From positions 1-34,303 of IMG/VR virus record IMGVR_UViG_3300030101_001881: a stretch of 34,303 nucleotides of DNA, one strand, 5' to 3'. The notes below the pieces were generated by a model. It had not been told where the DNA came from, did no database searches, and worked only from the letters and a program-made list of their open reading frames with translations. Positions within the stretch are counted from its first letter, which is position 1; each line of letters starts with the position of its first letter. This document shows, one piece after another, positions 37 to 34,303 of this stretch. Made by a program: the position numbers and the translations under genes. The DNA comes from a virus.

Positions 37-851
37 CCAGTACACTCCCCACCATCAACCTGGCAAAGATATGCCTCATCATCAAAGATCCAATCTCCCT
101 GACGCTGCACAAAATCACCCAGCTGTGCATACGTTCTTGTGTCATGGAAATGAGCCTGTTTGCCTATCTGTTCTGATTTCCAAGTTTCTATATCTGTCCA
201 CCAACGCATTCTGTCAGGGTACAAACGGAACATAGCTGCTAACGTTGCTTCTGATTTCAAGAAACATCCATCACAATTACCGCTACCAGGCACTATTTGT
301 AAGTCAAACGGTTGAGAGCCCCAGAAAGACATTATGTCTTTTTTTGTTACTTCTGCATTGTTTAATGGATACCAGTTTTGCCAACGCTTCTCTGTAGAAA
401 CTTTTATCCTACGTTTTTCATCTGCCCTTATACCAACAGTGTTATGCCAAGATTTCCAACCATGTTTTACTAAATATCTTTTGACCGTAAGCACTTTTAA
501 TTCTTGCGTACAAAACCGTCTAAATACATTTGGTAATATTTTTGGCTGTTCTAATGCTTGTCGGAAGGGCTCGCCAGCACGACTAGCAGAGTTGTGGCTA
601 ACAGTTACAAACTTAGGCATTTGCTTTCTGTACTCTAGCCATGTGATAGGCACACGCCAACGCTCGCTGCATTCTTGTACAAAGTCTAATGTTTCTGGCA
701 TCTCACGCCCCGTATTTGCAAAGACAACCTTACAACGCTCTGGCAAATCTCCGTTAACCTCAAGTATTTGATGCAACATATATCCTGACGTTCTGCCACC
801 GCTAAAAGCTATAGACACATTGCCATCAGGTATTGTGTATGGGCTACGCAT
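33..851 (-). CDS. PAPS-reductase-like PP-loop enzyme
   Basis: This 272-residue protein belongs to the phosphoadenosine-phosphosulfate reductase/ATP-pyrophosphatase superfamily. The N-terminal PP-loop SGGRTSGYML follows the strand VSIAF, and VVFANTGREMPETLDFV is the typical second strand and helix. A cysteine pair lies in GNCDGCFLK and another cysteine in RFCTQELK, as in the phage-borne branch of the family. Family members activate substrates with ATP or reduce adenylylated sulfate. Phage copies may serve sulfur assimilation or nucleic-acid modification, and the substrate here is unknown. It overlaps the upstream zinc-finger gene by 8 nt and sits downstream of a methyltransferase and a nuclease, so a DNA-modification role is conceivable but unproven. 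Confidence 0.85.
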   Translation of the reverse strand: MRSPYTIPDGNVSIAFSGGRTSGYMLHQILEVNGDLPERCKVVFANTGREMPETLDFVQECSERWRVPITWLEYRKQMPKFVTVSHNSASRAGEPFRQALEQPKILPNVFRRFCTQELKVLTVKRYLVKHGWKSWHNTVGIRADEKRRIKVSTEKRWQNWYPLNNAEVTKKDIMSFWGSQPFDLQIVPGSGNCDGCFLKSEATLAAMFRLYPDRMRWWTDIETWKSEQIGKQAHFHDTRTYAQLGDFVQRQGDWIFDDEAYLCQVDGGECTG

Positions 852-1047
852 CAGGATCCTCGTTTATAATCTCATCCTCAAGCAAGCTTACCTTGCCTGA
901 CCCACCACACACCTCGCATGGAACCATCTGGACGTACTCACCGTTGTTGTGCTCATGAGGCCAATGCACGTAGTAGGTCATTTCTCTCTCTCCAAACCCT
1001 CGACAACGTGAACAGCGAACCATGATCACATCGTCATCAGACATCAT
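844..1047 (-). CDS. DnaJ-like zinc-finger miniprotein (67 aa)
   Basis: The protein carries two CxxCxGxG-type modules, CSRCRGFGE near residue 12 and CEVCGGSGK near residue 43. This is the metal-binding pattern of the DnaJ cysteine-rich domain, reduced to a single zinc site. No J domain or other domain is present. Such miniproteins are common in phage early regions, where they may bind nucleic acid or protein partners, but no role is established here. Its start overlaps the end of the methyltransferase C-terminal frame and its stop overlaps the PAPS-reductase-like start by 8 nt, so the three are probably co-translated. Confidence 0.7.
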   Translation of the reverse strand: MMSDDDVIMVRCSRCRGFGEREMTYYVHWPHEHNNGEYVQMVPCEVCGGSGKVSLLEDEIINEDPDA

Positions 1048-2834: not shown

Positions 2835-3566
2835 ATGCAAACAACGATACATAATCTATTTAATGAACCAGCCATAATGCCAAACAATTTAGATGCAGTT
2901 ATTCGCGCGAGCGGTATAAATAAAAAGCAAGTTGCAAAAGCAGCTGGCGTTACACCAGAAACACTCTCAAGACACATTCATGGCAAAGTGCAAATGACGT
3001 TAGAGAATGCTGAGAAGTATGCTAATATCCTTGGTGTGTCTGTTCAAAAAGTTATGTTTGTAAATCCACCAACGCCAATTGTTGGAGAGGCAATATTAAA
3101 AACAAACAATAATATTGTTAGAAATTTTTACAAAGAATGGACAAGTGGTGTGCAAATCGCTGCTTACGTTTCCGATGATTTATGCGCTGTAAAATATACA
3201 GCAGAGCCTGCTTATAATGGCTATTGGTATGAATACGCGAATGCTCTTTGTTTTTATTTAAAGCAACCAATACTCGACCATACAGTGCATCCATCTTGTG
3301 TGCAAAACTCCTGTTTGGCTATGTTAGAAGATGAAATTAAACTTCCAAATCAGGAGCCAACGAAATTGCTTGCTGGCGTGTTATACCCAGAACCAGGTGA
3401 CCTTTATACAATAGACAGCCCAAAAAATGGTGTACATTTTAGAGGGCTGAAACTTTCATGGGCAACACCATTTCTATCTGCGTTGTTTAGGCCAGAACTT
3501 CGCGGTGTAACTTATGTAGACATAGAATCTGAACATTCTGACTGCGATGCTTGCAGCAATTCTTGA
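2835..3566 (+). CDS. CI-like phage repressor with HTH
   Basis: This 243-residue protein has an N-terminal XRE-type helix-turn-helix near residues 20-75 (SGINKKQVAKAAGVTPETLS, then HIHGKV). The C-terminal half resembles the S24/LexA-like part of phage repressors (LYPEPGDLYTI). I see no GxSM serine motif or catalytic lysine, so RecA-driven self-cleavage is doubtful. The ATG at 2835 follows AAGGTAAG. A second ATG at 2877 just before the HTH is an alternative start. It diverges from the Cro-like gene and probably maintains lysogeny by acting at the 2767-2785 and 3618-3637 elements. Confidence 0.8.
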   Translation: MQTTIHNLFNEPAIMPNNLDAVIRASGINKKQVAKAAGVTPETLSRHIHGKVQMTLENAEKYANILGVSVQKVMFVNPPTPIVGEAILKTNNNIVRNFYKEWTSGVQIAAYVSDDLCAVKYTAEPAYNGYWYEYANALCFYLKQPILDHTVHPSCVQNSCLAMLEDEIKLPNQEPTKLLAGVLYPEPGDLYTIDSPKNGVHFRGLKLSWATPFLSALFRPELRGVTYVDIESEHSDCDACSNS

Positions 3567-4886: not shown

Positions 4887-5080
4887 AATTAAATATTGAT
4901 GAAACAAATACAATTATCCAGGCGTTAGAAGAATTAAAAGGTTTGCAAGGTATGCCGTCTGATAAAATCGACGCTCTACTAAAACGTTTTAACAAATCTT
5001 TAGAACTTAAAATGATTGATCTAAGAATTGAAATGGAAATTGCTCAACACACACGTATACATAATGAGGACATGCTATGA
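4883..5080 (+). CDS. Small helical protein, tandem paralogue 2
   Basis: This 65-residue protein is a shorter relative of its upstream neighbour and lacks about 17 residues in the middle. Both end in EDML, and the DNA at both gene ends reads GAGGACATGCTATGA, so the duplication includes the ATGA overlap that couples translation to the following gene. Function unknown. Confidence 0.7.
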   Translation: MKLNIDETNTIIQALEELKGLQGMPSDKIDALLKRFNKSLELKMIDLRIEMEIAQHTRIHNEDML

Positions 5081-5751
5081 GCAACAAAGACGCAATAGCT
5101 GCACTAGCAAAAGCGCAGCAAGAAATGAAAACACCAGTTAAAGATGCAAATAATCCGCACTATCGAAACGGATACGCTAGTCTAAAGTCATGCATCAAAG
5201 CAATAAAGCCAGCTCTTAATGACAATGGGTTTGCACTATTACAATCTGCTGGCAAAGATGAGCAAGGTCATTACATACAAACTACTTTTGAGCATACATC
5301 TGGTGGTTTGTTTACCAGTAAGTTTTATATGGAGCCTGAGAAAAAAGGTATGCAAGGATTAGGATCCGCTGCAACATATGCCAAGCGATATGGCTTGCTA
5401 GGGCTTGCTGGCATCGAGCCTGATGAAGAGGCAGACGATGATGGTAATGCAGCAGATGAAAAACCAGCTCCGCCGAAACCAAAACCACAGGTAAAGAAAC
5501 CTGATCCAGAAGCAGCTCACGATGCAGCTGTACGAGAAGAACAAAACACTGCGCCTAGTACACCACTGCAGCTGAAAGAACTTATCGATGAAAAGATTAA
5601 AAAAGCTACGGAAACCTGGCAGCTTAAAAACATACCGAAAGAACACAGCAAAGATTTTGCAGTAATTAAAAAACACTCAGTAAATATGAGCAACGAACTA
5701 AGCGCCTACTACAAAACCAGATGGGAACAACTGAACACAGGGGAAAGATAA
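5077..5751 (+). CDS. erf: ERF-family single-strand annealing protein
   Basis: This 224-residue protein carries an N-terminal ERF domain: NPHYRNGYASLKSCIKAIKP, then DNGFALLQ, FTSKFYM and GLGSAATYAKRYGLLGLAGI. A proline- and lysine-rich linker (about residues 128-150) leads to a helical C-terminus. ERF proteins form rings on single-stranded DNA and anneal complementary strands, so this and the exonuclease form a two-component phage recombinase. In temperate phages this pair can circularise infecting DNA. Its stop overlaps the next start (TAATG). Confidence 0.9.
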   Translation: MSNKDAIAALAKAQQEMKTPVKDANNPHYRNGYASLKSCIKAIKPALNDNGFALLQSAGKDEQGHYIQTTFEHTSGGLFTSKFYMEPEKKGMQGLGSAATYAKRYGLLGLAGIEPDEEADDDGNAADEKPAPPKPKPQVKKPDPEAAHDAAVREEQNTAPSTPLQLKELIDEKIKKATETWQLKNIPKEHSKDFAVIKKHSVNMSNELSAYYKTRWEQLNTGER

Positions 5752-6152: not shown

Positions 6153-6382
6153 TGAGCGAGAAACATTTATTAAGCGTTAAAGACGCTGCACAGTTTTTGT
6201 TTGGTGATTACGACAGAACGCATCAAGATCGTACCAGGCGATTAATAAATCAACTTAAAGTAAAACAAATTGTAATAGGAAAAAGAACATTCGTTGTTAA
6301 AAACGAGTTAGCTGACAAGCTGGAGATTAACTTGTCAGCTGAACCTAGCGATAAGGTAGTGCAACTAAAAGATCGCGGATAG
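6152..6382 (+). CDS. Xis-like small DNA-binding protein
   Basis: This 76-residue protein has LLSVKDAAQFLF, a MerR/Xis-type first helix, a second helix QDRTRRLINQLKVKQ and the wing VIGKRTFVVKNELADKL. This is the winged-helix pattern of excisionases and helix-turn-helix DNA-binding domains. It is the last plus-strand gene and its 3' end overlaps the convergent integrase by 18 bp. Position and fold suggest a directionality factor for excision. A general transcription regulator is the alternative. Confidence 0.65.
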   Translation: MSEKHLLSVKDAAQFLFGDYDRTHQDRTRRLINQLKVKQIVIGKRTFVVKNELADKLEINLSAEPSDKVVQLKDRG

Positions 6383-7504
6383 CTTATCTACAGCAGCTGC
6401 ATTGTCAGCGTCTGACTCTAACCAGTGACCGTATATGCCTTGCGTAATGCGAATGTCGCTGTGACCCATGTATGTTTTTACACGCCACAAATCATCCGGG
6501 TACGCCTGGAGAAGCTTTGATGCATAATAGTGTCTAAGCTCATGCCAGGTAATTGGTGCAACACCAGCGCGTCTGCAAGCGTCTTTAATACGTGTAAGAT
6601 ACTTTGCAGCTGTAACCGGATGATTGAACTCAGTACCGAACACAAGTCTGTCAGGATCGTTTGGTCTGCCTTGTGCTATAAACAGCTCTTTAAGTGCAGC
6701 CAGTACGTCACGAGTAAGCGGTATAGTACGCAACCCAGAATATGTTTTAGTGCTGCCTATGTCAGTAGTCTTGTGTTTAATCGCACGATCAATAACAACC
6801 TTGCCAGCTGTAAGATCTATCTGCCCCCAGGTAAGAGCACGTTGCTCACCCTGACGAACACCAGTAGTACATGCAAAGCGAGCAAAGAACTGCCATCTAG
6901 TACAGAGCTGAGAGATGATGTTGTTGATTACATCAGTAGCAATGCGCTGTGCTTTGTTGCTACCTTCAGCAGTCTGTATCGCACCTTTGCGCTTAACACC
7001 TTCTAGCGGATTAGTTTCTCTACAGCCCTCGATGATGGCGTAGTTGATCATCATGCCAACTGAGCCACAGATATTTTTTACAGTCTTGTCTGTGCGCTTT
7101 ACTTTAAGCTGATCCATTACCTGGTGGGCAACCATGCCCTTGGTAAGATCTGCAACACGCATGTCAGCAAGCGGCTTGCCATCGACAACGCAATCTAAAA
7201 AACAATCTACGTGTCGTACTTTTTCCTGGTGGTAGCTTTTTGATTGCTCGCCGGCACGATATTCTTTTTCAACTTGTGCAATGTAATTTTTTGCAAGCTC
7301 GTAGAACGTCCACTTCCAGGCATCACTAGATTTATTAGTGTCTGACGTTTCTTTTACAAGCGCGTCTATATAAGCTTGCGCTTGCTCGCGTGTTTCATAA
7401 AATTTACGTGTGCCACCAGACAAAGCAGATCGTGTATCTACACACCAAGGACTGTGTCCAGCAAGCGCTCTACTTTTACTTTTTTTAGGCGAAACTTGTA
7501 ACAT
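6365..7504 (-). CDS. int: Tyrosine integrase
   Basis: The protein is about 379 residues. An N-terminal arm-binding and SAM-like region (FYELAKNYIAQVEKEYRAG) is followed by a catalytic domain with TTGVRQGEQRALTW (catalytic Arg), TWHELRHYYAS (HxxR) and GHSDIRITQGIYGHWL (nucleophile Tyr, about 21 residues from the end). I chose ATG 7504 because GGAG lies 6 nt upstream, while the ATG at 7516 lies inside the shared leader block. It inserts the phage at a tRNA 3' end, using the attP core at about 7661-7687. A promoter at 7538-7566 resembles the cro promoter. Confidence 0.95.
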   Translation of the reverse strand: MLQVSPKKSKSRALAGHSPWCVDTRSALSGGTRKFYETREQAQAYIDALVKETSDTNKSSDAWKWTFYELAKNYIAQVEKEYRAGEQSKSYHQEKVRHVDCFLDCVVDGKPLADMRVADLTKGMVAHQVMDQLKVKRTDKTVKNICGSVGMMINYAIIEGCRETNPLEGVKRKGAIQTAEGSNKAQRIATDVINNIISQLCTRWQFFARFACTTGVRQGEQRALTWGQIDLTAGKVVIDRAIKHKTTDIGSTKTYSGLRTIPLTRDVLAALKELFIAQGRPNDPDRLVFGTEFNHPVTAAKYLTRIKDACRRAGVAPITWHELRHYYASKLLQAYPDDLWRVKTYMGHSDIRITQGIYGHWLESDADNAAAVDKLSAIF

Positions 7505-7510
7505 ATCTAT

Positions 7511-7566
7511 CTCCATTTCTTGTCGCTTTATATCAAGAATGTATGATTTTATTAGACAAATTACAA
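7511..7566 (-). promoter_or_regulatory. Integrase promoter and shared leader block
   Basis: On the minus strand TTGTAA (7566-7561), 17 nt and TACATT (7543-7538) form a plausible promoter. The same TTGTAA box is used by cro. ATTCTTGATAT (7540-7530) also occurs just before cro. The leader contains GCGACAAGAAATGGAG (7526-7511), identical over 16 nt to the exonuclease leader. Confidence 0.5.
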
Positions 7567-8031: not shown

Positions 8032-8231
8032 TTTTTGTTCTCGTTGATGCGTGAGATCCGTTTGCCTTTGCGAACTGCATCAGCCTTTGAGCTTGCTCCC
8101 CAATCACGCAGCGCTTGTAGAAGTGGTGTCGCTTTACCGTTCTTTTTTTCACGCCCAGGCATCTTGCCCATGCGCTGGAGAAACGCTGCTCGCCTACCGG
8201 AGTTACCAGATTTCTCAGGAGCACTAGCCAC
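8028..8231 (-). CDS. Small basic protein
   Basis: This 67-residue lysine- and arginine-rich protein (SGRRAAFLQRMGKMPG, LLQALRDWGASSKADAVRKG) starts at a GTG that overlaps the stop of the preceding tiny basic gene. I recall similar small basic proteins near the ends of marine phage genomes, without known function. It may bind DNA, given its charge. Confidence 0.6.
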   Translation of the reverse strand: MASAPEKSGNSGRRAAFLQRMGKMPGREKKNGKATPLLQALRDWGASSKADAVRKGKRISRINENKK

Positions 8232-8403
8232 CGTATGACCCCATCATTGATTTCTTTTTCTTTGGCTTCTTGGCGGTCTTCGCAGCATCTTTAAAATTTT
8301 GCGCTGTAGGAGCTCCAGGTGATCCAGGCTTACGCATCTTCTCGCCACTACCACCAGCTATGCGCTTCCGTTTTTTGTGAATGTTCTCATACAATCCAGG
8401 CAT
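8224..8403 (-). CDS. Tiny lysine-rich protein ending SMMGSYGG
   Basis: This 59-residue protein starts at ATG 8403, with GGAGAAAGGA upstream. It begins MPGLYENIHKKRKR and ends KKPKKKKSMMGSYGG. It shares the MPG start with the gene upstream and the C-terminal motif with the products at 8405, 8557 and 30200. Function is unknown, but the repeated tail suggests a shared binding partner or structural role. Confidence 0.7.
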   Translation of the reverse strand: MPGLYENIHKKRKRIAGGSGEKMRKPGSPGAPTAQNFKDAAKTAKKPKKKKSMMGSYGG

Positions 8404-8404
8404 G

Positions 8405-8557
8405 TTATTTCCTTTCTCCAAAACTATTCATCATTGATTTTTTTTTAGGCTTCTTTTTTTTAAGCTCTGCAAAGTCAGCACCAGTAATCTGGTTTTTAGG
8501 TTCAGCAGCTGATGCAATTTTCATTTGCTTGGCAGAAAGCTTTTTTATTCCCGGCAT
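8405..8557 (-). CDS. Tiny lysine-rich protein ending KKKSMMNSFG
   Basis: This 50-residue protein starts MPGIKKLSAKQMKIASAAEP, continues QITGADFAELKKKKPKKKSM and ends MNSFGERK. Its ATG overlaps the stop of the 19-residue gene upstream (TAATG), and its stop lies 1 nt before the next ATG. The MPG start and the S-M-M-x-S-(Y/F)-G tail make it a sibling of the gene at 8224-8403. Confidence 0.6.
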   Translation of the reverse strand: MPGIKKLSAKQMKIASAAEPKNQITGADFAELKKKKPKKKSMMNSFGERK

Positions 8558-9028: not shown

Positions 9029-9294
9029 TAGTCTTTCTCCACTGGTTTCATTCCCCATTGCCTGGTGTAACCAAACTCTTCGTAAGCAGCTGCCCAACGA
9101 TTTTCAGTAAATGTTGCAAATGAAATGAGCTTGTCAGTATCTGCGTAGAGCTCGTTAACCCACTCAGTGTTGTCTGCTACTTGCTTTTCCAAGTGCTCTA
9201 TTCGATGAGCTTGATCTGACACCCACCAAACGCCAGCTACAACTTGAGCAATCATAGCTAGCACAAGCGCTAAAGGCAGTTTTAAATCTGCCAT
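9028..9294 (-). CDS. Small membrane protein with coiled coil in lysis module
   Basis: This 88-residue protein has one N-terminal transmembrane segment (LALVLAMIAQVVAGVWWV) followed by a helical region (HRIEHLEKQVADNTEWVNEL). It lies between holin and endolysin. This is the place and topology of an inner-membrane spanin, although no outer-membrane partner with a lipobox was found. A second holin or antiholin is an alternative. Confidence 0.6.
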   Translation of the reverse strand: MADLKLPLALVLAMIAQVVAGVWWVSDQAHRIEHLEKQVADNTEWVNELYADTDKLISFATFTENRWAAAYEEFGYTRQWGMKPVEKD

Positions 9295-28596: not shown

Positions 28597-30200
28597 TGCT
28601 GTTGTGCAGTTTGCGCTTGCGCTTTAATAAATGGAGCAACTTTATTTGCTACTTCTGCCTCTTGCATTTGCGCTTGTTGTTGTTGCGCTGCAGCGTTTGC
28701 TTGAGCTTGTTGTCTTCTTATTTCTTCAACCTCGCCAGCGCCACGAATAACTCTTGCTGGAAGCCCAGCGGTTTCAACTAGGTATTGCACCATCTTATCG
28801 CCATCGAGGTAATCGGTTACTGGTGCAACTTCTGAAACTTGCAATAAGATTTCAAACCCACGCAGCATCGCCTGGAGATCTGTAAGCTTCTGCGCCTTGG
28901 CAAGTGGCGAAACATACTCAATATCTATTTCTTGTCCTTGTAACTCCTCAGGAGCCGGAGGGAGGAGGCCGTTCCTGAGGAGTAATGCAAAAGACCTTGA
29001 GATGAGCGGCTGGAGCAATTCGGCCTGAAGTCTCCCCAAAACCGGGCCTAATAACCGCATTTTCTCTTCGTTCCGTTGCAACACTTCCGTTGCTGTCATG
29101 TTTGCTCCTTGCCCTAGCAGCAACTGATCTACATAAAAAGCTTGACGTATTGCGTTTCGCCTTTGCTCTTCCATATTAAGTCCAAGTGGATTATTCGCGC
29201 CTATGTTCAGCGGCTCTAGTCTGTCTCTTGTGCCAGATCGATAGAAATTAAGCGCACCTGGTGAAGTTCTTACTGGTGAGATAAAACCATCATCAGGAAC
29301 CATCAGTGGTGGATCTAGTTGTTTCTGGCTGGCTCGTATGGTCACTTCGCTCATTTTATTGAGCATTTTTACATCTGGCAGAGCAGTCATTGCTGGAGAG
29401 CGACCATACTGGCTAACTGAATCTTTTACAAAACGCGGAACCATAAACGGAAAGTCATCAAAGCCACTTTCCGAAAGCATTGCAAGACCGTTATCAAGAT
29501 AATAAATCGATGCAATAGGTTTGTCTTTTGCAAAGCTTCCCTTCGTTTCACTGCGTGGAAAAACGGCATGTATAACATCATGTTCTGCATATGGATCTTG
29601 TTCTACGTCTTTTACAATTTTTTGCGGAAGCTGCGCCTCTGGAAATTGCATTTGTATGGCGCGAGCTGACATTTTAAACTTACGATAGATTGTATCAACT
29701 CGACCCCTTGGATCTTCTGAAATACATATCTCCGCAATATGTCTGCAAGCAAATCGCAAACCATCAGCGTCCATCTCCACATAAAATGCACCTGTGCCAA
29801 AAACCACCAGGTCATAATAAAGCTCATGGATTTCTTGCTGAAAGTTTGATCTATTAAAAGCCTGGTACATTTGATCTGTACACACTTCTAGCCATTCATT
29901 TGCTGCATCATCTCTTTGTAGACCAGGGTTTCTGTATCGCATTGAAAACCACGGTGTACTTGGGCTTGTCAACATACCATGCAAGCTCGATGCCAGCAGC
30001 TCTACCGCGTGTATTGCTGTTCCATCAAAAATTAATTCTGTTCGTTTATCACCTTGCGTTCTGCGTTTTGTAATATCTGCTTTGCGTGGCAACATGAAAT
30101 CTGCCAGCTGTTGCCAGTGGCTTTCCCAATTGGATCGCTGGCTTTGTAGCGTTTTTCGTCGCTTATCTAGCTGCGTTATAATAGGATTTATTTGTGCCAT
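28593..30200 (-). CDS. Portal / head-tail connector protein (T7 gp8-like)
   Basis: This 535-residue protein matches the head-tail connector family. It has LADFMLPRKADITKRRTQGD, LIFDGTAIHAVELLASSLHG and MLTSPSTPWFSM at the N-terminus. QLLLGQGANMTATEVLQRNE, found in the stem/wing, is characteristic, and a Gln-rich tail ends the protein. It forms the dodecameric ring through which DNA is packed and ejected. Start TAATG-overlaps the small upstream gene. Confidence 0.95.
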   Translation of the reverse strand: MAQINPIITQLDKRRKTLQSQRSNWESHWQQLADFMLPRKADITKRRTQGDKRTELIFDGTAIHAVELLASSLHGMLTSPSTPWFSMRYRNPGLQRDDAANEWLEVCTDQMYQAFNRSNFQQEIHELYYDLVVFGTGAFYVEMDADGLRFACRHIAEICISEDPRGRVDTIYRKFKMSARAIQMQFPEAQLPQKIVKDVEQDPYAEHDVIHAVFPRSETKGSFAKDKPIASIYYLDNGLAMLSESGFDDFPFMVPRFVKDSVSQYGRSPAMTALPDVKMLNKMSEVTIRASQKQLDPPLMVPDDGFISPVRTSPGALNFYRSGTRDRLEPLNIGANNPLGLNMEEQRRNAIRQAFYVDQLLLGQGANMTATEVLQRNEEKMRLLGPVLGRLQAELLQPLISRSFALLLRNGLLPPAPEELQGQEIDIEYVSPLAKAQKLTDLQAMLRGFEILLQVSEVAPVTDYLDGDKMVQYLVETAGLPARVIRGAGEVEEIRRQQAQANAAAQQQQAQMQEAEVANKVAPFIKAQAQTAQQQ

Positions 30201-30403
30201 TATTTTTTTCCGTAACTGCCCATAATCGATGGGCGTTTTACCTTAATACCTTCTAAAACCTTGCCTTGAGATCGTCCGGCTGATTTTTGCATCATGCGCT
30301 CTAACGGATCGACAGTTGCAATACCCGGCATCTGAGCTGGCTGCATTGCATCACGACCCATAAGCCCAGCTATATTCTGGGGTTTTTTCTTGTTCATTAT
30401 CAT
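30200..30403 (-). CDS. Small basic protein ending SIMGSYGKK
   Basis: This 67-residue protein lies between the 312-residue gene and portal. It ends VKRPSIMGSYGKK, the same tail as the tiny proteins at 8224-8616, and contains an internal MPGIATVDPLERMMQ. Its location next to portal suggests the shared tail acts in virion assembly or DNA binding, but no function is known. Confidence 0.65.
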   Translation of the reverse strand: MIMNKKKPQNIAGLMGRDAMQPAQMPGIATVDPLERMMQKSAGRSQGKVLEGIKVKRPSIMGSYGKK

Positions 30404-32898: not shown

Positions 32899-33312
32899 CT
32901 ATCCAGCTTCTGCACTGACCTCACCACCTGACCAAGTCAATGTGATCTGCCCAGCTTGCTGCTTATCCTCTTGCTTATCACGTAAGCCTAGTGGCTGCAT
33001 CTGTCGTATATGTTTATCCATGTGATCTGCTTGCAGTCTCCGCCGCTGTACTTCAGCCATAGCCAGCTTTGGATCTGTTGGTAGCTCTGCCTCAACCAGG
33101 TCTAATATCTGATCACGCATAACCTCACACTGCAATGAACGTGCTGTGCGATACTGTGTGTATGCATCTTCGTTCTCTTGCACATATCTTAAGATAGTAC
33201 GCCATGAAGGTAAGTGATCGTTCTCGTTACAAATACGTGTAAGGCTTACACCTTCCGCTATTGCTTCGCAGATTTCTTCTAGCTGTGCTTTTGTTACATT
33301 ACGTTTTGGCAT
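32899..33312 (-). CDS. terS: Terminase small subunit
   Basis: This 137-residue protein has an N-terminal helix-turn-helix (LEEICEAIAEGVSLTRICNE and SWRTILRYVQE). YTQYRTARSLQCEVMRDQIL and DPKLAMAEVQRRRLQADHM match the phage terminase-small-subunit-like family. It recognises the packaging site and recruits TerL. It is preceded by a 290-nt gap with regulatory features. Confidence 0.85.
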   Translation of the reverse strand: MPKRNVTKAQLEEICEAIAEGVSLTRICNENDHLPSWRTILRYVQENEDAYTQYRTARSLQCEVMRDQILDLVEAELPTDPKLAMAEVQRRRLQADHMDKHIRQMQPLGLRDKQEDKQQAGQITLTWSGGEVSAEAG

Positions 33313-33604
33313 TGTGTACCTAAGAAAAAGACCTGACTAGACTGGTTTACAGTTGAGACAGCATAAGCGCCAGTTGATTATGAATCTAGCCAGGTAAGTT
33401 AGTTGTTGAGGTATGGAATATACAGGCATTCCAGGCTGTCGTGCTGACAGCTCAGACCGTTACTTTGCGACAAGAAAAGGAGGAGCTGCCAGCGTTTGAC
33501 ATAACTTAAACAACATCTGCCTAAGTATATCATATCCCATACTACATTTCGTGCACTCATACAAGCAATAGTTTTTTTTCAGTCAAGTAACATGACATAT
33601 ATCG
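33313..33604. promoter_or_regulatory. Non-coding leader before terS with hairpin and shared block
   Basis: No convincing gene lies here. A possible minus-strand extended -10 box (TGATATACT, 33532-33524) faces terS. A perfect 6-bp hairpin GCTGTC-GTGCT-GACAGC lies at 33435-33451. On the plus strand GCGACAAGAAAAGGAGG (33467-33483) followed by TTTGACAT closely resembles the exonuclease leader and start. A 28-codon plus-strand frame (33413-33499) covers this block but has no other support. Confidence 0.4.
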
Positions 33605-34033
33605 TCAAAAGTACTCTGCCAAGATCTCATCATCCGTATACTTGAGCTTTGCCCAGAGCCTTATTAAAGCATCCTGGTATCTGCGTTTGATCTGTCTACC
33701 ATCACGCAATCCATTCATTCTTGCAAGCTTCTGCCATTGCGCGCCTCGCTCACGAAAGGCAGCGCTATGGCTGACAGCCCAAACCATCTTACGATCATCT
33801 GCATCCATGTGCATTATGCCAAGAATAAGAGCTTTGTCATACTGTGTTACTTGCTTTGGAGATGGTGCTGGTAGCTTTGGTTTAAACTCTGTGCTGCCAT
33901 ACGCCGACCACTGCTGTTGATACTCAGGCCATGATCCTAGCTTTTGTTTTCGTATTGCCGGGGGAAGAGCTCGCTCTGTTTCTGCTGCTTGGAAAAACAT
34001 ATCACTGAGCTGTGCTACATCTGGGTTATCCAC
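33605..34033 (-). CDS. DUF6362-like HTH protein, first late gene
   Basis: This 142-residue protein uses GTG 34033, with CGGAG 8 nt upstream. LPPAIRKQKLGSWPEYQQQW, then PSPKQVTQYDKALILGIMHM and DGRQIKRRYQDALIRLWAKL match the DUF6362 phage family with a C-terminal helix-turn-helix. Members commonly sit just upstream of terS. A role in late regulation or packaging is likely, and it is the obvious candidate to bind the adjacent 13-bp repeats, which is inference. Confidence 0.75.
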   Translation of the reverse strand: MDNPDVAQLSDMFFQAAETERALPPAIRKQKLGSWPEYQQQWSAYGSTEFKPKLPAPSPKQVTQYDKALILGIMHMDADDRKMVWAVSHSAAFRERGAQWQKLARMNGLRDGRQIKRRYQDALIRLWAKLKYTDDEILAEYF

Positions 34034-34203
34034 AAAGATTGCTCCGAAAAAATATGATGGCTATATACACTTAGTGTATTCACTTAGTGTATACTCTTTG
34101 TGTATTTATCGCTTTTGCAAATGAGCTTTATGTTTGCTCATTTACAACGCTGTGTAATCACTTAGTGTTAACACTTAGTGTATACTGTGTTGCGACTGCG
34201 TCG
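34034..34203 (-). promoter_or_regulatory. Late leader with 13-bp iterons and hairpin
   Basis: Two arrays of a 13-bp unit with the palindromic core ACACTTAGTGT occur. Array A holds three units (34067-34105, the third diverged) and array B two units (34158-34183). A hairpin AAATGAGC/GCTCATTT (34119-34143) separates them. In array B neighbouring units create a perfect 12-bp palindrome AGTGTTAACACT (34164-34175). The arrays lie downstream of the promoter and upstream of the first late gene. Confidence 0.75.
34067..34183. repeat. Five copies of a 13-bp palindromic repeat
   Basis: Core positions are 34067-34077, 34080-34090, 34093-34103 (variant ACTCTTTGTGT), 34158-34168 and 34171-34181. Within each array the spacing is exactly 13 bp. 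A protein-binding array of operators or iterons is the natural reading. Confidence 0.85.
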
Positions 34204-34233
34204 ATTATAAGAACACCCAAAAAACCTAGTCAA
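34204..34233 (-). promoter_or_regulatory. Strong sigma-70-type late promoter
   Basis: On the minus strand TTGACT (34233-34228), 18 nt and a perfect TATAAT (34209-34204). It points at the iteron arrays and the late operon, with a predicted start near 34197. It is the best promoter in the window. Confidence 0.75.
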
Positions 34234-34237
34234 TCCC

Positions 34238-34303
34238 CTATTTTTCCACAAACGTCTGACTTGCTATTTGACGTACGTCCTCGTGTATTAACGTATAAGT
34301 TTT
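34238..34303 (-). other. Open frame entering from the right edge
   Basis: Read from the edge on the minus strand, the frame KTYTLIHEDVRQIASQTFVEK stops at TAG 34240-34238. If the window is circular, it is the exact in-frame continuation of the gene started at 36. On its own it could be the tail of another gene or chance. Confidence 0.3.

Follow-up and report, generated by a model that had tools for sequence, protein, structure and literature searches.

The region 34026-34250 of the window (the whole stretch of viral DNA analysed here, which covers 34,303 of the 34,601 bases of the virus record and is followed by a scaffold gap of ten N from 34,304) is best read as a late promoter joined to an iteron-like replication origin that is bracketed by DnaA boxes. 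This reading would explain most of the features; we prefer it tentatively, and give it somewhat less than an even chance. Such statements of confidence, here and for the other readings, are judgements and not computed probabilities. The features of the region, and the genes referred to below, are as follows.

34242..34250, plus strand: box 1, a DnaA-box-like 9-mer (TTTTCCACA) upstream of the -35 element
34204..34233, minus strand: late promoter TTGACT-18-TATAAT, 11 of 12 matches
34193..34203, minus strand: inverted repeat CGAC-GCA-GTCG, at the likely start site
34148..34184, minus strand: promoter-proximal array, two good repeats and one half-site
34110..34150, minus strand: central hairpin, core stem AAATGAGC/GCTCATTT, with the 9-nt loop AAACATAAA on the sense strand
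34064..34105, minus strand: promoter-distal array, two good repeats and one degenerate
34026..34034, plus strand: box 2, TTATCCACA, a perfect DnaA box that overlaps the DUF6362 start codon GTG
33605..34033, minus strand: DUF6362 protein (142 aa), the first late gene; predicted fold weakly nearest to antiterminator Q21
844..1047, minus strand: zinc-finger protein (67 aa) among the early leftward genes, with weak similarity to Q-like antiterminators (phrog_127, E=0.0033)
6365-7516: integrase
5077-5751: ERF recombinase
2835-3566: CI-like repressor
2539-2748: small Cro-like protein, weakly HTH-like

Judged from its genes for an integrase, a CI-like repressor and an ERF recombinase, the source phage is temperate. 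A family of marine temperate phages carries the module just upstream of the virion genes, which in the window start at 34,033 and run leftward. These virion genes are common to the family and to the abundant HTVC010P-type pelagiphages (the capsid is ~60-70% identical to capsids of that type). Promoter and leader are located between the early leftward genes and the DUF6362 gene, which starts with GTG at 34033 and is preceded by GGAG. Phage records contained neither a DNA match to the region nor a relative of DUF6362. A search with DUF6362 yielded 23 relatives, most with a complete leader, among which the promoter, the start-site inverted repeat, the arrays, and the hairpin recur; further lineages came from searches seeded with more remote DUF6362 proteins, with a protein encoded nearby, and with a pattern for the promoter. 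The leader is untranslated in class I proper (window, L176, L181, L233, L234). In G016/L222 the flanks are the same, an open frame spans the array, and the central hairpin is absent. In class II (L037, L058, L040, L155, L159, L164, L182, L261) a related promoter is followed by an array within an open frame. Two scans of genome contigs for a named host returned no contig and then a single one, binned in a Flavobacteriales MAG. This contig (L261) carries DUF6362, a promoter, and an array of GCTAAGCTTAGC whose centre is A+T-rich, and may be a viral contig that was mis-binned.

The near-consensus promoter proposed in a preliminary description of this DNA was confirmed. Read on the minus strand from 34233 to 34204, it stands at the head of the late operon, is directed towards the terminase and virion genes, and is conserved in relatives. 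The inverted repeat at the likely start site had not been described before; its counterparts in other lineages are CAC-GAA-GTG, CGGC-TGT-GCCG, and CGC-GCA-GCG. In class II phages, a short inverted repeat directly after the -10 element stays paired despite changes in the overlapping codons (GCCT/AGGC in L037, 1049-1066; GGGT/ACCC in L040, 2408-2420; GCCC/GGGC in L058, 2836-2851; GGCC/GGCC in L164).

The leader holds ~11-bp repeats at 13-bp spacing, four of them good and two degenerate, with the hairpin between them. Repeats of the ACACTTAGTGT type are perfect at 34067-34077 and 34171-34181, deviate by one mismatch at 34080-34090 and 34158-34168 and by two at 34093-34103, and are reduced to a half-site at 34148-34155. 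The earlier claim of five 13-bp palindromic repeats holds for the two arrays around a hairpin, but the fifth repeat is degenerate. The 13-bp period is kept inside each array, with 78 bp from array to array. Direct 7-mer pairs number 36, compared to a shuffle mean of 2.06 (0/1000 shuffles as high), and the leader is the top-scoring 145-nt stretch of the window for repeat content. The motif CACTnAGTG occurs four times in the region and once elsewhere (at 9161) in the 34.6-kb record.

The window clade has two array types, A (ACACTAAGTGT) and B (ACACATTGTGT), which share identical outer half-sites (ACAC...GTGT) while the three central bases switch in concert. Other groups have the repeats CGCTAAGC, GCTCAGCGCTGAGC, CATATATGCGCT, AACTATATAGTT, and AGTGATTACAGTGTA. 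Layout and promoter are conserved, and the repeat sequence is fully replaced between lineages; the repeats are lineage-specific and clustered at one place per genome. Repeat content was scored in 15 lineages by direct and by inverted 7-mer pairs; with the better of the two scores, no lineage had more than 32 of 1000 shuffles that reached its value, and the weakest are L181 and L182.

The strict pattern TTWTCCACA is found in the window only as TTATCCACA and TTTTCCACA, the two 9-mers that flank the region and that had not been reported previously. TTATCCACA is the DnaA consensus (PMC8203912). The looser pattern TTWTNCACA occurs six times in the window, which equals the chance expectation, so the case for the boxes rests on the relatives. 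Both 9-mers bracket the region in 24/24 class I representatives at a distance of 185-218 bp, and box 1 is conserved in these 24 in its sense-strand form TGTGGAWAA, with L222, L225, L233, and L234 having been retrieved by a pattern that requires box 1. Within the window clade, box 2 is TGTGGACAA in four representatives and TGTGTATAA in two. Matches to TTATNCACA are limited to the bracketing pair in G016 (34,987 nt) and G018 (14,472 nt), and the second box of G016 is inside a different gene.

Several observations fit an origin: the array, the boxes on its flanks, the single location per genome, and the missing replication genes. Of the 19 records examined, several of them fragments, no array-bearing one had an AAA_25 or DnaB_C match above the cut-off, whereas in the array-less sister group (G012, G013) AAA_25 is encoded in a primase-helicase-like gene upstream of terS; since many records are fragments, the missing helicase genes are no proof. 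Neither Pfam nor PHROGs recognised an initiator gene. The position of the class II arrays inside an open frame was also counted for an origin, the iterons of phage lambda being located in gene O. At iteron origins, repeats specific to the replicon occur together with DnaA boxes (PMC5043065), and ori-lambda needs nearby transcription, which is stimulated by DnaA (PMC8203912, PMC3985674). By analogy, host DnaA would bind the two flanking boxes and a phage or host initiator the iteron-like repeats, while transcription from the promoter would assist in opening it, a role that transcription and DnaA have at ori-lambda. Replication and late transcription would then start from one place.

Other results count against an origin. 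The class II phages have the array and lack the flanking DnaA boxes, the looser box pattern stays at chance level in the window, and the conserved hairpin loop (see below) is better explained by RNA. GC skew gave no origin signal. The 13-bp spacing puts the repeats out of helical phase, and we therefore do not file the region under the plasmid iteron class. Visual inspection shows a clear A+T-rich centre in G016 and L261; in the window, the leader has an AT content of 65% and its centre is taken up by the hairpin.

The same repeats and boxes might instead form an operator array, to which a phage or host DNA-binding protein (possibly including DnaA, acting as a transcription factor only) would bind to repress or activate the late promoter, with no role in replication. 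In the window clade the repeats show dyad symmetry (ACAC-N3-GTGT) at a constant 13-bp spacing and begin a few bases past the start site, and their three central bases change in concert between types A and B. Box 1, just upstream of the -35 element, would be at a frequent activator position. An operator array would explain the repeats. We nevertheless consider it unlikely, given that the repeat spacing is not constant in group B, that the palindrome excess is found mainly in the window clade and L261 and is missing in most other lineages, that the phage's other control region lacks the repeats, and that no candidate binder emerged, as no examined phage protein changes with the arrays.

The last point concerns the binders put forward in the preliminary description, which saw the arrays as operators for the HTH protein or the repressor. 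The recognition region of DUF6362 (DGR[QV][IV]KR.Y.DAL) is constant across phages with unrelated arrays that differ beyond recognition, and DUF6362 was rejected as the array binder. CI is 33-79% identical among phages sharing the type A array, and the array repeat does not occur in the cI-cro control region. No difference in the Cro-like protein, TerS, the zinc-finger protein, p72, or p66 goes along with types A and B, and the HTH regions of the Cro-like protein and TerS stay constant as the arrays change, although the A/B comparison alone is not decisive for a binder because the outer half-sites are shared. None of these proteins, CI included, tracks the array type, and all were dismissed as binders. 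Together, the sequence data do not support operators for DUF6362, CI, or Cro-like proteins.

A role in packaging, with the small terminase binding the region as a start site (pac or cosB), is very improbable. The region lies one gene upstream of terS, and array repeats around a hairpin resemble lambda cosB, where repeats surround a bend or hairpin. However, TerS of group B (L019-L021) is 98% identical to that of the window while the array is different, and the array stays with the promoter, even in L037, where terS begins ~3 kb further on. As array type does not follow TerS, a pac/cos site was rejected.

The hairpin between the arrays, formerly described as 8 bp long, is present and shows compensatory changes, but it is longer than stated: at 34110-34150, the 8-bp core is extended to ~12-14 pairs in the predicted fold. 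In a comparison of nine sequences (lineages A, B, L176, L181, L233, and L234), the core stem is paired in 93% of the cells and six of its eight pairs have changed on both sides, even with the L176 hairpin, which MAFFT misaligned by one column, kept in the pair count as a handicap. The covariation score of the stem is 0.62; shuffles give 0.25 (0/500), and slid controls do not exceed 0.19. The loop, of 9 nt (10 in L176), retains CA, in most cases within CATA. Such a combination of conserved loop and changing stem indicates a structure that acts single-stranded and, as the hairpin is in a transcribed leader, RNA would be the simpler reading. Folding of the leader is much stronger than that of shuffled sequence (z -5.35; other lineages z -1.8 to -7.2); both strands fold about equally, so that the strand comparison gives no decision between RNA and DNA. 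Rfam families gave no match in the leader above or near the gathering score. The proposed nut-like RNA site was not borne out: the boxA-like GCTCTTWA is absent from 34034-34303 even with one mismatch, which makes a lambda-type nut site unlikely. Antitermination as such, which had also been suggested for the late switch, has become somewhat likelier from the weakly Q21-like fold of DUF6362.

The AlphaFold2 model of DUF6362 is helical (pLDDT 81). Its top three structural alignments are to Q21 structures (Z 7.2, 7.0, and 6.4 over 119, 115, and 93 residues); the Z of 7.2 is the best of 26 alignments, a Z of 7 being middling, and the alignments ranked after Q21 cover the sigma-4-like half only. The model was also aligned with AlpA (Z 4.0). 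Foldseek with the model gave nothing significant, and a Pfam scan of the protein returned the DUF6362 match only and no PF06530. Membership in PF06530, the Q21 family, was rejected by hhalign against PF06530 members (probability 0.3 and 0.2 percent), with phage Q genes as the yardstick. We found no paper naming DUF6362 in a literature search. A Q-like role for DUF6362 is thus a weak lead from the predicted model and implies no family membership.

These similarities bear on a purely transcriptional, Q-type late switch, in which DUF6362 or the zinc-finger protein would join the polymerase on the promoter with the help of two sequences, an element in the -35/-10 spacer and a -10-like pause site at the array start. 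The strongly folding leader would then impose pausing or termination, or provide a site for loading through RNA, and only the modified polymerase would pass it well. Q21 uses an element between -35 and -10 together with a -10-like pause sequence (PMC6606751), and the sites of Q21 and of Caulobacter GafZ are likewise between -35 and -10 (PMC6606751, PMC11150451). Several lineages share the spacer element TTTTGAATCAYGTT, and -10-like TA-rich hexamers are seen by inspection at ~+14 to +19 from the predicted start site, at the start of the array. The alignments of DUF6362 with Q21 and AlpA, its place as the first late gene, the strong folding of the leader, and the hairpin covariation with its conserved loop point the same way. 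On the other hand, the spacer of the window lacks TTTTGAATCAYGTT, a search of 33000-34303 gave no intrinsic terminator, folding is about as strong on one strand as on the other, and the Z scores are middling, with Foldseek non-significant and the Q21-family profile comparison negative. Such a switch would explain the promoter, DUF6362, and the hairpin, and would leave the DnaA boxes unexplained. We regard it as a less probable explanation, at roughly one chance in four. Within the preferred reading of a joint promoter and origin, DUF6362 might initially be expressed from transcripts that read through from the early leftward genes, and might then act as a Q-like antiterminator on polymerase coming from the late promoter, steps that are less supported than the others. 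The 67-aa zinc-finger protein is a possible partner of the site, judged from its sequence, and not part of it. CxxC proteins related to it are also encoded upstream of the late promoter in other lineages.

Among known systems, ori-lambda with pR/pO and DnaA is similar in having a symmetric repeat array by a promoter, DnaA sites nearby, and transcription through or near the origin, and the class II arrays within an open frame recall gene O. It differs in that no O- or P-like genes were recognised here, the repeats are 13 bp apart rather than being ~19-bp iterons, the promoter is late rather than early, and a central hairpin with a conserved loop is present. Iteron plasmid origins (P1, F, pSC101) share replicon-specific repeats, DnaA boxes, and one site per genome; here, no Rep gene was found, the spacing is out of helical phase, and only some relatives (G016, L261) have a clear A+T-rich centre, the window having the hairpin. 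The late promoter of phage 21 (Q, PF06530) and AlpA resemble the present case by a late promoter with a short HTH protein, a predicted DUF6362 fold that aligns over most of its length, and -10-like hexamers in the initial transcribed region. Sequence-profile similarity is missing, however, the window spacer has no TGAGCA direct repeat, and the DUF6362 gene is downstream of the promoter that it would serve. GafZ, the regulator of the Caulobacter GTA, is an antiterminator with a sigma-like HTH and serves one promoter before virion genes with a long untranslated leader; in contrast, the -35 and -10 of its promoter enclose a palindromic site, and the Caulobacter control genome had no PF19889 match. 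HK022 put RNA and lambda nut also place structured RNA in a leader, but the leader studied here has no boxA-like sequence or Rfam match, and CA(T)A is not a boxB loop.

The region matters for how these phages, which have no recognisable replication genes and no phage polymerase, copy their DNA and turn on late expression. If the origin reading is true, a single element of 220 bp would be relevant to both processes and would tie late expression to host DnaA, and the DUF6362 family gains its first testable function. That a single DnaA-bracketed element fires replication and late transcription from one promoter, its repeats replaced wholesale under a constant layout, and does so in phages without a recognisable initiator, helicase, or primase gene of their own, appears to us a doubtful proposition on present sequence data, with perhaps a one-in-five chance of being correct.

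Two minor observations concern small ORFs. Those at 8224-8421 and 30200-30403 (both on the minus strand), although far apart, have similar ends (SMMGSYGG and SIMGSYGKK). The ~60 bp upstream of box 1 (34250-34303), which fall within a small ORF at its 3' end, come in alternative versions, as they do at the corresponding place in L004, L010, L015, L017, and L019, and some of these versions carry GCACT(A/T) repeats at ~10-11 bp spacing.
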